64,000 nt of DNA, from assembly GCA_013003535.1 (NCBI GenBank), contig JABDIY010000074.1, positions 1-64,000 on the forward strand, written 5' to 3'. Every line of letters starts with the position of its first letter. Within the stretch, counting starts at the first letter, position 1. Source of the stretch: Acidimicrobiales bacterium. GTDB lineage: Bacteria; Actinomycetota; Acidimicrobiia; Acidimicrobiales; SZUA-35. The notes under the pieces are model-generated. The model was not told the DNA's origin, searched no databases, and saw only the letters and a list, made by a program, of their open reading frames with translations. Below, piece after piece: positions 38,736-44,302 of the stretch. The translations under genes were made by a program, and so were the position numbers.

Positions 38736-39146
38736 TCAGCGGGGTCCATCTGTTGGAGAGTGGGTATTGATCATGGCCGTACTGCCGGCATCGAAGTAAT
38801 CGCTCATCATTTGCGCCACCTCGGGAGGAGCGGTCCGGCTGGCCAGGGAGATCTGGAGCGCTTCCAACATGTGTTTCAACCAGTGGTCCCGCGCCTGAGG
38901 GGTTATCCGGAATGGGGCATGGCGCATGCGGAGCCGCGGGTGGCCACGCTCGTTGCTGTAGTGAGGCGGACCGCCCCAGTATTGGGCGAGAAATCCTGCG
39001 GTGGTTCGTCGAGACTCGGTGAGATCTTCGGGGTAGATCGCGGTCAGCACCGGGTCGGCGCTTACTCGGTCGTAGAACTCGTTGACGAGTTCCACGAAAA
39101 ACGCCTCGCCTCCGACCACATCGAAAACGGTTGCGGTTTCGGTCAC
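38736..39146 (-). CDS. glbO: Group II (O-type) truncated haemoglobin
   Basis: The 136-residue 2-on-2 globin matches TrHbO. VGGEAFFVELVNEFYDRVSAD, FLAQYWGGPPHYSNERGHPR and MRHAPFRITPQARDHWLKHM supply the B10/CD region, the proximal His helix and the G8 Trp typical of group II. Such globins bind oxygen and may handle peroxide or NO. The start is GTG 39146, six bases after TAGCGT. It lies directly upstream of the redox sigma gene on the same strand, and read-through from it into that operon is likely. Confidence 0.9.
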   Translation of the reverse strand: MTETATVFDVVGGEAFFVELVNEFYDRVSADPVLTAIYPEDLTESRRTTAGFLAQYWGGPPHYSNERGHPRLRMRHAPFRITPQARDHWLKHMLEALQISLASRTAPPEVAQMMSDYFDAGSTAMINTHSPTDGPR

Positions 39147-39218: not shown

Positions 39219-39656
39219 CTAGGACGGGGCGGGTCCTAGCACCACCATCAGTTCCACATCACACGTGGTTTCACCGTCCACCGTTGCGATCCCGTGGCCT
39301 TTGCCGCCGCGCGCCGAGAGCCGACCGAAGGTCACCTCCATGTGAAGAGTGTCGCCCGGAATGACCGGTCGCCGGAACTTCGCGCCGGACACACCCGTCA
39401 GGAACGGGATCCGGCCGGCAAACTTCTCTTCAGCCAGCACCGCACAGGCACCGGTTTGGGCAAGTGCTTCGATCTGCAACACACCGGGAACCACCGGTTC
39501 ACCGGGGAAGTGGCCGGGGAAAAACCATTCGTCTCCGGTGAGATGCCAGATGCCCCGTACCCGTTCACCGGGGGTCAGTTCGATCAATTCGTCGACGAAG
39601 AGAAATGGGTGGCGGTGGGGGAGAAGGTGGATCGGAGCGGGGAGTGCGTCCGGCAT
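39219..39656 (-). CDS. fabZ: 3-hydroxyacyl-ACP dehydratase
   Basis: The 145-residue hotdog-fold protein dehydrates 3-hydroxyacyl-ACP. LLPHRHPFLFVDELIEL and FPGHFPGEPVVPGVLQIEAL contain the catalytic His and Glu of FabZ. The ATG follows the fabF stop with no gap (TAGATG). It is the last gene of the leftward fatty-acid operon. Housekeeping FabZ is unusual in Streptomyces-type actinobacteria but is standard in a bacterial type II system. Confidence 0.93.
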   Translation of the reverse strand: MPDALPAPIHLLPHRHPFLFVDELIELTPGERVRGIWHLTGDEWFFPGHFPGEPVVPGVLQIEALAQTGACAVLAEEKFAGRIPFLTGVSGAKFRRPVIPGDTLHMEVTFGRLSARGGKGHGIATVDGETTCDVELMVVLGPAPS

Positions 39657-40829
39657 CTACGACGGTGGCCCGATGATGATGGTGCCGTTGTGACCACCGA
39701 AGCCAAAGCTGTTGGACATCGACGGCCCTGGAGTCCATGGCCGGGGCTCGCCGACTACCAGATTGATCGCTGGCAACTCAGGATCGACGATCTCAAAACC
39801 TGCCGTGGGCGGAATGAGTTTGTGCTCCATGGCTAAAAGGACCGCCACCGCTTCGAGGGCCCCCGCAGCTCCGAGAGCGTGACCTGTGATGCCCTTGGTG
39901 GAAGTCACCAGCGGGCCGGGCTCACCGAAGACCTTGGCCATGGCATGGGCCTCGGCTGAGTCGTTGAGTGGTGTGCTGGTTCCGTGGGCATTGATGTGCA
40001 CGATGTCCGAAGCGCGGAGACCGGCGTGTTCCATGGCGAGCTCCATGGACCGAACGGCGCCCGATCCGCCCGGTGCCGGTGCGGTGATGTGGTGAGCATC
40101 GGCGGTTGATGCTGCTCCCAACATTTCACCGATGATCGTGGCGCCTCGATCCAGCGCATGATTCCATTCTTCGAGAACGATGACACCGGCCCCCTCACCC
40201 ATCATGAATCCGTCCCGGCGGGCATCGAAGGGGACAGATATGCCGGCTGAGGAAAGGGCCGTCATGTTGCCGAACCCCGCCAGCGAGGTGGGGGTGAACG
40301 CGGCTTCGGAACCACCGGCAAACACCGCATCGCAGCGTCCGTCGGCAATCATCCGCATGGCGTTACCAATGCTGTGGGTCCCGGCGGCACAAGCGGTGAC
40401 CGTTGCTTCACATGGACCCTGAAACCCGTGCCGCATCGATACTGCGGCCGCTGCCGCGTTGGGCATCATCATCGGGACCAGGAACGGCGACACTCGCCTA
40501 CTGCCCTTAACGTGTTGGATGACGATCTGCTCTTCGTTGGTGCCGATGCCGCCGATCCCGGTACCGATGAGGGTTCCGATGCGACCTGGATCAATGCCCA
40601 GATCACCGGCGTTTTCAGCCGCTTCAGCAGCTGCGGCTATGGCGAACTGAGTGAAGCGGTCAGCCCGTCGTGATTCTTTCGGGTTGGCGAAGTAGGGGGA
40701 GGGGTCCCAATTGGGAACCCTCCGTTCGCCGGCTGGAGCGGGGCCGATGAGGCCCTCCCAGAAAGCTTCTTTCCCGGTGCCGCAGGGGCCGACAACCCCG
40801 AGACCGGTGATGGCGACCCGACGGGACAT
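39657..40829 (-). CDS. fabF: 3-oxoacyl-ACP synthase II
   Basis: The 390-residue thiolase-fold condensing enzyme elongates acyl-ACP with malonyl-ACP. The triad is Cys147 in TACAAGTHSI, His in NAHGTSTPLND and His in KGITGHALGAAG. The N-terminus VAITGLGVVGPCG is typical. Its ATG overlaps the acyl carrier protein stop by one base (TAATG). Confidence 0.96.
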   Translation of the reverse strand: MSRRVAITGLGVVGPCGTGKEAFWEGLIGPAPAGERRVPNWDPSPYFANPKESRRADRFTQFAIAAAAEAAENAGDLGIDPGRIGTLIGTGIGGIGTNEEQIVIQHVKGSRRVSPFLVPMMMPNAAAAAVSMRHGFQGPCEATVTACAAGTHSIGNAMRMIADGRCDAVFAGGSEAAFTPTSLAGFGNMTALSSAGISVPFDARRDGFMMGEGAGVIVLEEWNHALDRGATIIGEMLGAASTADAHHITAPAPGGSGAVRSMELAMEHAGLRASDIVHINAHGTSTPLNDSAEAHAMAKVFGEPGPLVTSTKGITGHALGAAGALEAVAVLLAMEHKLIPPTAGFEIVDPELPAINLVVGEPRPWTPGPSMSNSFGFGGHNGTIIIGPPS

Positions 40830-41068
40830 TAGAGTTTGGCGACGATCAGGTCGTACGCCCCGCCAACGGTCTGGACCCCTTCCAGTTCTTCCTCTTCAAC
40901 GGAGACGTCGAACTCTTCTTCGAGTGCCATGACGAGCTCGACGAGATCGAGGCTGTCGGCGTCGAGGTCTTCCGCGAAGCGGGCTTCTTTCTTGACAGCG
41001 TCGGCCTCAACGGAGAGGACCTCTACTGCGCAGGCGGTGAATCGCTTGAAATAATCTTGTTCGCTCAC
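40829..41068 (-). CDS. acpP: Acyl carrier protein
   Basis: The 79-residue acidic helical protein has the phosphopantetheine site [12 protein letters not shown] with Ser39. It carries the growing acyl chain for the fab enzymes encoded around it. The start is GTG 41068, with a GAAAGAG ribosome site. It lies between fabG and fabF, the usual position. Confidence 0.96.
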
Positions 41069-41161: not shown

Positions 41162-41887
41162 CTAGACACCCCCACCCATTCCAAGTCCGCCATCCACAGC
41201 GATGGTGGTCCCGGTGATGTAGCCGGCTTGGTCGGATGCGAGGAAGACGACGGCGGCGGCTACTTCTTCTACCGTTCCCACGCGCCCCAACGGTACTGCG
41301 GTGGTGATGGATGCTTTGGCCGCATCGGAGACCGCATCGAACATGTCGGTTCCGATGGGGCCAGGAGCCACGATGTTGACGGTGATGTTTCGGGAGGCGA
41401 ATTCACGCGCCAGGGATCGCGCGAGGCCTACGAGCCCAGCCTTGCTGGCGGCGTAGTTGACCTGGCCGGTCTGGCCGATCGCCCCCACGACGGAGGAGAT
41501 GAAGATGATCCGGCCATACCGGGCCTTCATCATCGGTTTCACCGCCCGCTTGGCAACGCGCCAAGAACCGGTGAGGTTGGCGTCGACCACGCTGGTGAAG
41601 TCTTCTTCCTTCATGCGGAGCGTCAGACCGTCTCGAGTGATTCCGGCATTGGCTACCAGCACGCTTACTGGGCCAATGGCCTCTTCAACGGCGGTGAAGA
41701 GCGATTCGACGCTTTCGGGAGAGGTAATGTCTCCCTCGAACCAGCGAATGCCCGGGGGGACCTCAGCTGGTTCAGAGCGGCTGGAGATCACGACGGTATG
41801 GCCGGCGGCGACGAGCGCGCTGGCGGTGGCCCTTCCGATCCCGCGTGATCCGCCGGTCACAAGAGCGACGCTGGGCTGGTCGCTCAC
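41162..41887 (-). CDS. fabG: 3-oxoacyl-ACP reductase
   Basis: The 241-residue short-chain dehydrogenase reduces 3-oxoacyl-ACP with NADPH. ALVTGGSRGIGRATA binds the cofactor, VANAGITRDGL is the NAG motif, and VNYAASKAGLVGL contains the YxxxK pair; the catalytic Ser lies in IIFISSVVGAIG. The start is GTG 41887, overlapping the fabH stop (GTGA); the frame continues above it but inside fabH. Confidence 0.94.
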   Translation of the reverse strand: MSDQPSVALVTGGSRGIGRATASALVAAGHTVVISSRSEPAEVPPGIRWFEGDITSPESVESLFTAVEEAIGPVSVLVANAGITRDGLTLRMKEEDFTSVVDANLTGSWRVAKRAVKPMMKARYGRIIFISSVVGAIGQTGQVNYAASKAGLVGLARSLAREFASRNITVNIVAPGPIGTDMFDAVSDAAKASITTAVPLGRVGTVEEVAAAVVFLASDQAGYITGTTIAVDGGLGMGGGV

Positions 41888-42831
41888 GAGCCGTTCCATC
41901 GGACCAGAGCACTGGCCCAAGTCATGCCAGCTCCGAAGCCGATGAACATCACCAAATCGCCGTTCTGGACGCGATCTTCTCTCAACGCCTCATGAAGGGC
42001 GAGGGGGATGGTGGCGCCCGAGGTGTTTCCGGTGTTCTCCAACACCATGGCCGTCTTCTCCATGGGGATTCCTAGTTTCTTCCACGCCGATTCAACGATT
42101 CGGATATTCGCTTGGTGCGGGACGAAGAGGGCGATCTCGTCGACCGTGGTGCCCGACATGTCCAGAGTGTTCTGTACGGTTCGCTGGATTGCGGTGACCG
42201 CTTGTCGGAATACTTCCTTACCGTCCATCTTCAGCACGTCACCATGTTCGGCATACAGGATGTGGACGAACTTTCCGTCGGCACCGAGGTCCCACCCCAG
42301 TAGCTCGCCGACGCCGGACGGATCGCGTTCGATCACGGCGGCACCGCCACCGTTCCCGAAGAGAATTCCCGTGCCGCGATCGTGATAATCGGTGATCTTG
42401 TCCAGAGCCTCTGCTCCTACCAGGAGGATTCGGTTCATCCCCTGCATGAGGAAGCCGTTGGCGATCGGCAAGCCATAGACCCATCCTGAGCAGGCGGCCT
42501 GAATGTCGAGAGCGCCACAATCCAGGCCCAATTCATTGGCCACTCCTGGTGCAGTGCCAGGGCAGATGTGCTCCGGACTCGTGGTCGCCAACAGGAGAAG
42601 ATCAATGTCCTCGGGACCCACTCCTGCTGCGTCCATCGCTTCTTGGCACGCGATCGTGGCGAGTTCGGTGGTGCTGGATCCGATGTGGCGCTGACGGATA
42701 CCGGTTCGTTCATAGATCCACTCGTCTGTGGTGTCCATATAACCTTCGAGATCTACGTTGGTCAGCACCTTGTCCGGAAGCGAGGACCCGACGCCGGACA
42801 ACTTGAAGCCTGCCGGCTGATGTGTGGTCAT
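41884..42831 (-). CDS. fabH: 3-oxoacyl-ACP synthase III
   Basis: The 315-residue enzyme starts fatty-acid chains from acyl-CoA and malonyl-ACP. The triad is Cys114 in QAACSGWVYGL, His in FVPHQANIRI and Asn in ENTGNTSGAT. The N-terminal TTDEWIYERTGIRQRHI is typical. Its ATG overlaps the fabD stop (ATGA). Confidence 0.96.
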   Translation of the reverse strand: MTTHQPAGFKLSGVGSSLPDKVLTNVDLEGYMDTTDEWIYERTGIRQRHIGSSTTELATIACQEAMDAAGVGPEDIDLLLLATTSPEHICPGTAPGVANELGLDCGALDIQAACSGWVYGLPIANGFLMQGMNRILLVGAEALDKITDYHDRGTGILFGNGGGAAVIERDPSGVGELLGWDLGADGKFVHILYAEHGDVLKMDGKEVFRQAVTAIQRTVQNTLDMSGTTVDEIALFVPHQANIRIVESAWKKLGIPMEKTAMVLENTGNTSGATIPLALHEALREDRVQNGDLVMFIGFGAGMTWASALVRWNGS

Positions 42832-44015
42832 GACTGCACCCTAAGCCATGCAATGGGTTGTGAGGAAGCAACTCGTTCGCCGGGAAAGGCGAGCATGCCG
42901 TGGAGTTCGCCGGCGAAGGCGGTTCGCACCTCGATTTTTCCCACGTGACCGATCAGCTCGCCGACGCCGACCTGATGGCCTGTTTGGGTGGCGGGAAGAG
43001 GAGTGAAAACCCCGCTAGCGGGACTAACCACGAGTCGCTCGCTGGCATAGAGGAACTCTCCATCCGGCGAGCGATCATTTTTTGGGGAGTGAGCTAACTC
43101 CTCGAGAAGTCTGTCGAGTCCTTCCGGGGTGGAAACGGCAGCGTTGGCGACGGACGGGACTGTGCGTTTCGCCATTCCGGAAAGGACGCTGCCCGGCCCG
43201 AGTTCAACGAGGAGGCTGGCACCGGATTCTTCCATCGTGTGCAACGACTGGCGCCACTGGACCGGACTGATCAGCTGAGCGCTGAGAAGCTCCGGCCATT
43301 CAGCCTCACCCGAATGGAATTGGGCGTCTACGTTGGCCACCACGGGGCGTTCGGGCATGCGAAACTCTACGTCCTTCAATGCCTTGCCCAATCGTTCGCC
43401 CGCCGAGGCCATGAATGGGGTGTGAAACGCCCCGCCAACTTTGATTGGCATCACTCGCTTGGCTCCCAGACTCTTGGCCAAGTCGCCTGCGGCAGCGATA
43501 CCTTCTTCGCTGCCGGCGATCACAACCTGACCGGGAGCATTGAAATTGGCCACGAACGCATCGTGGTTGGCCTTCTCACATGCCAGCTCTACGAGTTCAT
43601 CGTCGAGGCCCAACACTGCCGCCATCGTTCCAGGGTTGGCATCGGCGGCAGCCTGCATGGCATTGCCCCGTTCGGTTACGAGTCTCACACCGTCGGCAAA
43701 CGACACCGCTCCCGACGCGACCAGCGCGGAGTACTCCCCGAGGGAGTGCCCAGCATGCATTGTGGGTTCGATTCCCAGCCGCTCCACGGCATCGAGGACC
43801 ACCATGCTCAGTACAAAGGTGGACAGTTGGGCGTTTCGGGTCTGCCGGAGCTCTTCAGCATCGGCGCTCAGCAGGAGGTTGGCAATGTCTCGCTCAGCCA
43901 CGTCGCTGGCCTCAGCGACCAACTCCCACGATGGGTGGTCGGTCCAGGATGAACCCATCCCGGGAGCCTGACTGCCCTGGCCGGGGTAGGTGAATGCGAT
44001 TTGGGTGCTTGCCAT
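42828..44015 (-). CDS. fabD: Malonyl-CoA:ACP transacylase fused to a C-terminal barrel-sandwich (biotinyl/lipoyl-like) domain
   Basis: Residues 1 to about 310 are a normal FabD: YPGQGSQAPGM, the active Ser91 in HAGHSLGEYSALV, and GGAFHTPFM with the catalytic His. The last 80 residues are extra. VVSPASGVFTPL, GHQVGVGELIGHVG, AFAGELHGML and PGERVASSQPIAWLR follow the strand and turn pattern of a biotin-carboxyl-carrier or lipoyl domain. The short stretch GKIEV replaces the EAMKM hairpin, so no attachment lysine motif is seen. ATG 44015 is chosen over a 22-residue longer frame. It is the first gene of the fab operon. Confidence 0.92.
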   Translation of the reverse strand: MASTQIAFTYPGQGSQAPGMGSSWTDHPSWELVAEASDVAERDIANLLLSADAEELRQTRNAQLSTFVLSMVVLDAVERLGIEPTMHAGHSLGEYSALVASGAVSFADGVRLVTERGNAMQAAADANPGTMAAVLGLDDELVELACEKANHDAFVANFNAPGQVVIAGSEEGIAAAGDLAKSLGAKRVMPIKVGGAFHTPFMASAGERLGKALKDVEFRMPERPVVANVDAQFHSGEAEWPELLSAQLISPVQWRQSLHTMEESGASLLVELGPGSVLSGMAKRTVPSVANAAVSTPEGLDRLLEELAHSPKNDRSPDGEFLYASERLVVSPASGVFTPLPATQTGHQVGVGELIGHVGKIEVRTAFAGELHGMLAFPGERVASSQPIAWLRVQS

Positions 44016-44169: not shown

Positions 44170-44252
<83 letters not shown>

Positions 44253-44302
44253 CCGACACCAGCGGGAACACCGCAGCTTTTCGAAGGAGGACCAAGCAAC
44301 CG

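Follow-up and report, generated by a model that had tools for sequence, protein, structure and literature searches.

The fabD gene of an Acidimicrobiales bacterium, located in a stretch of 64,000 nucleotides (hereafter the window), raises the question of why its product continues for some 80 residues (42831-43067) beyond the catalytic part of the enzyme, and what this tail might do. The protein up to about residue 308 is a complete FabD, matched by PF00698 and by TIGR00128 with 282.2 bits against a cut-off of 260.9. The motifs GHSLGEY and AFHTP are intact and invariant, as are S91 and H198 in 50 relatives. The solved FabD structures listed among the matches can be aligned only to around residue 307 (327 in the case of 3g87), so an earlier note on this DNA was right in describing a whole FabD followed by about 80 additional residues. 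The tail domain, here termed EXT, and the surrounding operon are set out in Table 1. The overlap between the fabD stop and the fabH start is likely to couple translation of the two genes. A tRNA-Leu(CAA) gene lies divergently upstream of fabD (44170-44254, plus strand), and a small protein which by eye resembles a truncated haemoglobin is encoded next to the operon (38736-39146, minus strand).

Table 1. Features of the fabD locus and of the FabD protein in the window.
Feature	Position	Strand	Remarks
fabD ORF	42828-44015	minus	395 residues, in frame; ATG at 44015, stop 42828-42830
FabD catalytic acyltransferase part	43092-44015	minus	residues 1-308; active-site motifs intact
Linker	43050-43091	minus	residues 309-322; 312-322 predicted disordered, pLDDT <50
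EXT, C-terminal barrel-sandwich BCCP-like domain	42831-43061	minus	residues 319-395; 77 residues
GKIEV shortened hairpin, at the position of EAMKM in BCCPs	42927-42941	minus	no conserved lysine
SQPIAWLR, last-strand family signature	42840-42863	minus	Q, P, A, W, L and R invariant within the order
ATGA overlap of fabD stop and fabH start	42828-42831	minus	
fabH, ketoacyl-ACP synthase III	41884-42831	minus	directly downstream of EXT
fabG-type short-chain reductase	41162-41899	minus	
acpP, acyl carrier protein	40829-41068	minus	start tentative; attachment serine within DADSLD
fabF	39657-40829	minus	
fabZ-type dehydratase	39219-39656	minus	

AlphaFold, run on 44 related sequences, predicts EXT confidently as an all-beta domain of six strands, with a mean pLDDT of 89.7 and values of 94-98 in the core. 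When compared with the PDB using Foldseek, the domain matched BesA together with a run of biotin carboxyl carrier proteins (5gua, 2evb, 4hr7, 1bdo and 9yx4, the last being the BCCP within the M. smegmatis acyl-CoA carboxylase). The matches to BCCPs have an E-value of 5e-5 and a probability of 1.00, with TM-scores, normalised to the small BCCP targets, of 0.75-0.83 (5gua, 0.83). The sequence of the window tail alone is uninformative: a direct phmmer search against the PDB returned noise only, and a Pfam search found no match even at E 10, PF00364 included. A profile is required. One built from 37 EXT sequences (A5) retrieved from the PDB the BCCP 2d5d (1.8e-9), E. coli BCCP (1bdo, 1.8e-8; 3bdo, 1.6e-8) and the transcarboxylase 1.3S subunit (1dcz, 7.2e-8). 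Since BCCPs are found both by fold and by sequence profile alone, EXT is homologous to the biotin carriers, beyond a mere likeness of shape. BCCPs are its closest single-domain relatives by profile and among the best by fold. With a predicted two-sheet fold of about 75 residues and this sequence homology, EXT is a descendant of the biotin-carrier superfamily and belongs to the biotinyl/lipoyl barrel-sandwich group. This bears out the carrier-type fold which the earlier note had read from the turn and strand pattern of the tail, and for which it had proposed comparing a model of residues 316-395 with BCCPs. No entry in Pfam or NCBIfam recognises the EXT family, and no phosphopantetheine carrier family of the ACP type was matched in it in either database; the operon contains an ordinary acpP of its own.

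The residue which makes a BCCP functional is the lysine of the (A/V)MKM motif, and it was found in no EXT of a fatty-acid synthase operon. When EXT-type sequences were aligned to 2d5d, the biotin-lysine column held lysine in only five rows, all of them outgroup sequences of genuine biotinyl/lipoyl proteins; in the FAS-operon rows the residue is never lysine and is mostly glycine or deleted. A few matches were set aside as genuine lipoyl/biotinyl proteins with the lysine present, namely two of 92 residues from genomes of about 1 Mb (L090, L091) and three others (L273, L275, L283). It has been considered that EXT could still be a true carrier, using another residue or accepting lipoyl or biotin in a manner that only makes it look lysine-less, as it belongs to the biotinyl/lipoyl family and the short hairpin in the window contains one lysine. 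The relatives, however, show T, D, S, E, N or G at this position, and the aligned domain has no conserved lysine at all, so that such a role is scarcely conceivable. With the biotin lysine absent from all FAS-operon members, EXT cannot carry biotin in the usual manner. The missing attachment lysine and the reduction of an EAMKM-type hairpin to GKIEV, both reported in the earlier note, were confirmed. Several arginines, meanwhile, are strongly conserved in EXT. Members from another class (L292-L320) have a conserved SLRD at the biotin site, apparently the outcome of a change from lysine to arginine that selection has maintained.

Could the tail be an artefact? Within the genus, full-length FabD is 80-82% identical, tail included, and EXT itself 75-77%. 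For EXT, dN is 0.16-0.20, far under dS, which exceeds 1 and is near saturation, in a pattern much like that of the catalytic part. EXT is under purifying selection. Conservation of the tail across families, taken with dN/dS, rules out a frameshift or a chance extension, which had been raised as a possible weakness of the original reading.

EXT is kept through most of the order. In the first 60 relatives searched, the tail is fused to FabD in those members of the bacterium's own family that have a full-length match, and in many other Acidimicrobiales families, while in more distant families the same stretch of about 77 residues is a separate ORF just 3' of fabD. Named public genomes yielded 79 matches, every one of them a fusion and 76 close to full length; where a record title states a group, it is mostly Acidimicrobiales or Microthrix. 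Three public MAGs titled Bifidobacterium breve (L181, L192, L196) encode an Acidimicrobiales-type FabD-EXT and are probably mislabelled records. Across the class of the window, matches to profile A1 at E 1e-3 occur in 210 of 295 genomes, a count which takes in genuine carriers and whose reliable part is the strong matches with E below about 1e-12. In at least one other class of the Actinomycetota, EXT has a gene of its own. In a further class, that of genome G614, EXT is matched in 91 of 296 genomes (about 30%) at E 1e-11; among 30 loci fetched from this class FabD and EXT form a single ORF in 29, the thirtieth being cut by the end of a contig. A search of viral contigs for FabD found nothing, and a phage-borne copy was rejected.

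The domain is lacking where a FAS-II FabD is lacking (family f19 and genomes G057, G062 and G091). Family f28, in which the only FabD-type matches are large PKS-like acyltransferases, has no EXT, nor has f22, where fabD and fabH lie apart. Several other orders of the same class carry fabD directly beside fabH without EXT, and because these lineages do so, FAS-II can operate in the absence of EXT. A number of genomes related to that of the window (G054, G150, G211 and G221 of f19, G117 of f28, G062 and G091) have neither a FAS-II FabD nor a normal FabH, and may rely on FAS-I or another route.

The typical EXT operon runs fabD-EXT-fabH-(fabG)-acpP-fabF, followed in 46 loci by accD, and the order with accD recurs across several classes. 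FabD precedes EXT in 66 of 86 loci (26 of them fused), and the gene 3' of EXT is fabH in 73, accD in three and fabG in two. This prevalence of fabH raises the prospect that EXT is a docking domain for ACP or FabH, keeping either close to FabD, with malonyl-ACP then produced at the site of its consumption by FabH. EXT remains with fabH where fabD has moved away (L041, L117, L120, L265-L267), and conserved arginines are frequent on ACP-binding faces. Two loci (L092, L105) nonetheless have EXT without an adjacent fabH, and in three others (L107, L116, L127) it directly adjoins only accD, the carboxyltransferase gene (PF01039). Furthermore, the homology of EXT is to BCCP and not to ACP-binding domains, and FabD and FabH elsewhere bind ACP unaided. 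We consider an ACP- or FabH-docking function unlikely, albeit credible. The occurrence of EXT with fabH in the absence of fabD, and with accD alone, marks it as a component of a combined acetyl-CoA carboxylase/FAS-II module and not a private part of FabD; its travelling with fabH without fabD makes it an independent part of that module. EXT relatives also occur elsewhere. One small lysine-less protein (L122:4873-5250, minus strand, genome G364; E about 1e-15) is encoded outside any FAS operon in an apparent glycan/sulfotransferase cluster. Two others (L093:5094-5312 and L094:5286-5495) lie antisense between nusB-like and pyrR-like genes, near efp, pepP and aroQ, the position of accB in some Firmicutes.

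The history of the fusion was read on a FabD tree of 103 rows. Fused FabD-EXT appears in four separate places (f82; f99, f114 and f123; f43; and the Acidimicrobiales block), and the tree needs six changes between the fused and unfused states, at least four of which are forced by well-supported branches. Some of these switches could represent splits of an ancestral fusion instead of new fusions. Whichever the direction, the tree indicates that FabD and EXT have been joined or parted repeatedly. The original view of the tail as an appendage of FabD did not survive: EXT is a widespread family of separate FAS-II-operon genes, repeatedly fused to FabD, and the separate genes found with fabH or accD rule out an element of FabD only. 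The same observations weigh on a purely structural role, in which EXT would stabilise FabD or drive its oligomerisation with no partner outside FabD. Barrel-sandwich domains are often structural modules and the fusion is a recurrent one; against this, many families encode EXT on its own, and it persists with fabH or accD while fabD is elsewhere, the linker is predicted to be flexible, and nothing shows EXT packing on FabD. A structural function of this sort is very doubtful.

The accD gene directly follows fabF in the 46 EXT loci noted above. Of the FAS-II loci without EXT, 18 could be judged, and none has this arrangement (L256 has a fused EXT and is not counted among them). These 18 come from few lineages and the association is clustered by lineage, so that it does not amount to independent statistical evidence. 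In the window genome accD lies outside the FAS operon, its best homologue being on another contig. The AccB equivalog TIGR00531 had no match in this genome at E 1e-15, and a dedicated AccB is missing not only from the EXT-positive genomes but also from nearly all of those without EXT. EXT as a stand-in for a missing AccB was therefore rejected as a sole explanation.

One way to connect EXT with the carboxylase is as a decoy which takes the place of the genuine BCCP on acetyl-CoA carboxylase in competition with it, and so throttles malonyl-CoA synthesis in proportion to the level of FabD. Both inhibition and assembly have been reported as functions of plant BADC proteins (PMC11926652, PMC7712654), the biotin lysine is likewise lost in EXT, and EXT shares an operon with accD. 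Yet an inhibitor co-transcribed with the synthesis genes would be odd, the shortened hairpin weakens any mimicry at the active site, and later plant work, as cited in PMC11926652, favours the assembly role. Inhibition by EXT is decidedly unlikely.

With the cargo site lost and the fold and QP.AWLR strand kept, EXT is most readily understood as a module that binds other proteins. We tentatively favour, as a possibility somewhat short of even, that it is a non-catalytic docking or assembly element between acetyl-CoA carboxylase and FabD/FAS-II, a role for which the plant BADCs set the precedent of lysine-less BCCP homologues and which would be functionally like theirs. The FabD tail belongs to a family of lysine-less biotinyl-like domains in Actinomycetota that has no name; it is attached here to FabD by the flexible linker, and other members are often small proteins encoded on their own between fabD and fabH. 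EXT would bind acetyl-CoA carboxylase, through the carboxyltransferase AccD or a biotin carboxylase/BCCP subunit, and hold FabD, the first user of malonyl-CoA, beside its producer. The repeated fusion to FabD constitutes a Rosetta-stone signal. The hairpin that enters the carboxyltransferase site in true BCCPs has been lost, which argues against a BCCP-style insertion of EXT into that active site; any docking must therefore use another face. Counting against docking are the same-class lineages which run FAS-II without EXT, the equal AccB status with or without it, and the position of accD outside the FAS operon in the window genome. The mycobacterial operon fabD-acpM-kasA-kasB-accD6, too, has accD and no EXT. 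The earlier suggestion that the tail docks with acetyl-CoA carboxylase, so that malonyl-CoA could pass directly to FabD, has thus gained support on the side of operon linkage, as accD ends the operon of many relatives and adjoins EXT in three loci; the binding partner and the local hand-over of malonyl-CoA are what we infer.

The biotin-carrier superfamily and FabD are already known, and the EXT family has no name in Pfam or NCBIfam. No description of the family or of its fusion to FabD was found in the open-access literature, which is no proof of novelty. EXT may form a link between the producer of malonyl-CoA and its consumer. A lysine-less carrier fold placed between fabD and fabH, often with accD in the operon, and repeatedly fused to FabD provides a concrete and testable link from acetyl-CoA carboxylase to fatty-acid synthase in a phylum with many industrial producers. 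It is possible, on a somewhat more speculative footing, that a BCCP-like protein without biotin, the bacterial equivalent of plant BADC, has been overlooked in the Actinomycetota. This protein would join acetyl-CoA carboxylase physically to FabD/FAS-II, allowing malonyl-CoA to be both produced and transferred to ACP in one assembly, and in many lineages it would have been permanently incorporated into FabD as its tail.

A number of parallels can be drawn with known systems. Nearly all solved FabDs stop where the tail of the window protein starts. The C-terminal region of YqeB (TIGR03309) gives a weak profile match (3.9e-6, residues 151-212; 26.5 bits against a cut-off of 220), but YqeB is a selenium-dependent molybdenum cofactor protein, unlike EXT; YqeB and locus L125 possibly contain another lysine-less barrel-sandwich domain. 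With the BCCPs (AccB, the BCCPs of acyl-CoA carboxylases and the gamma subunit of methylmalonyl-CoA decarboxylase, 2d5d/5gua) EXT shares fold, profile, length, turn and strand pattern and a genetic link to carboxyltransferase. It differs from them in having no EAMKM or biotin lysine, in its shortened or rewritten hairpin, in the additional signature QP.AWLR, and in its FAS-II location and frequent fusion to FabD. Plant BADCs are homologous to BCCPs but lack the biotinylation motif, and serve as non-catalytic assembly subunits of acetyl-CoA carboxylase or, by other reports, as inhibitors (PMC11926652, PMC7712654). Going by these descriptions, they resemble EXT in the loss of the biotin motif and in the tie to acetyl-CoA carboxylase and fatty-acid synthesis, and differ from it in being plastid proteins. 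To our knowledge, they do not occur as fusions to FabD. Closer in phylum are AccE and the noncatalytic 'glue' subunits of acyl-CoA carboxylases, the latter cited in PMC11926652: likened to EXT from their description in the literature, these are non-catalytic helpers of the same class of enzyme in actinobacteria. EXT would represent a bacterial parallel to plant BADC.
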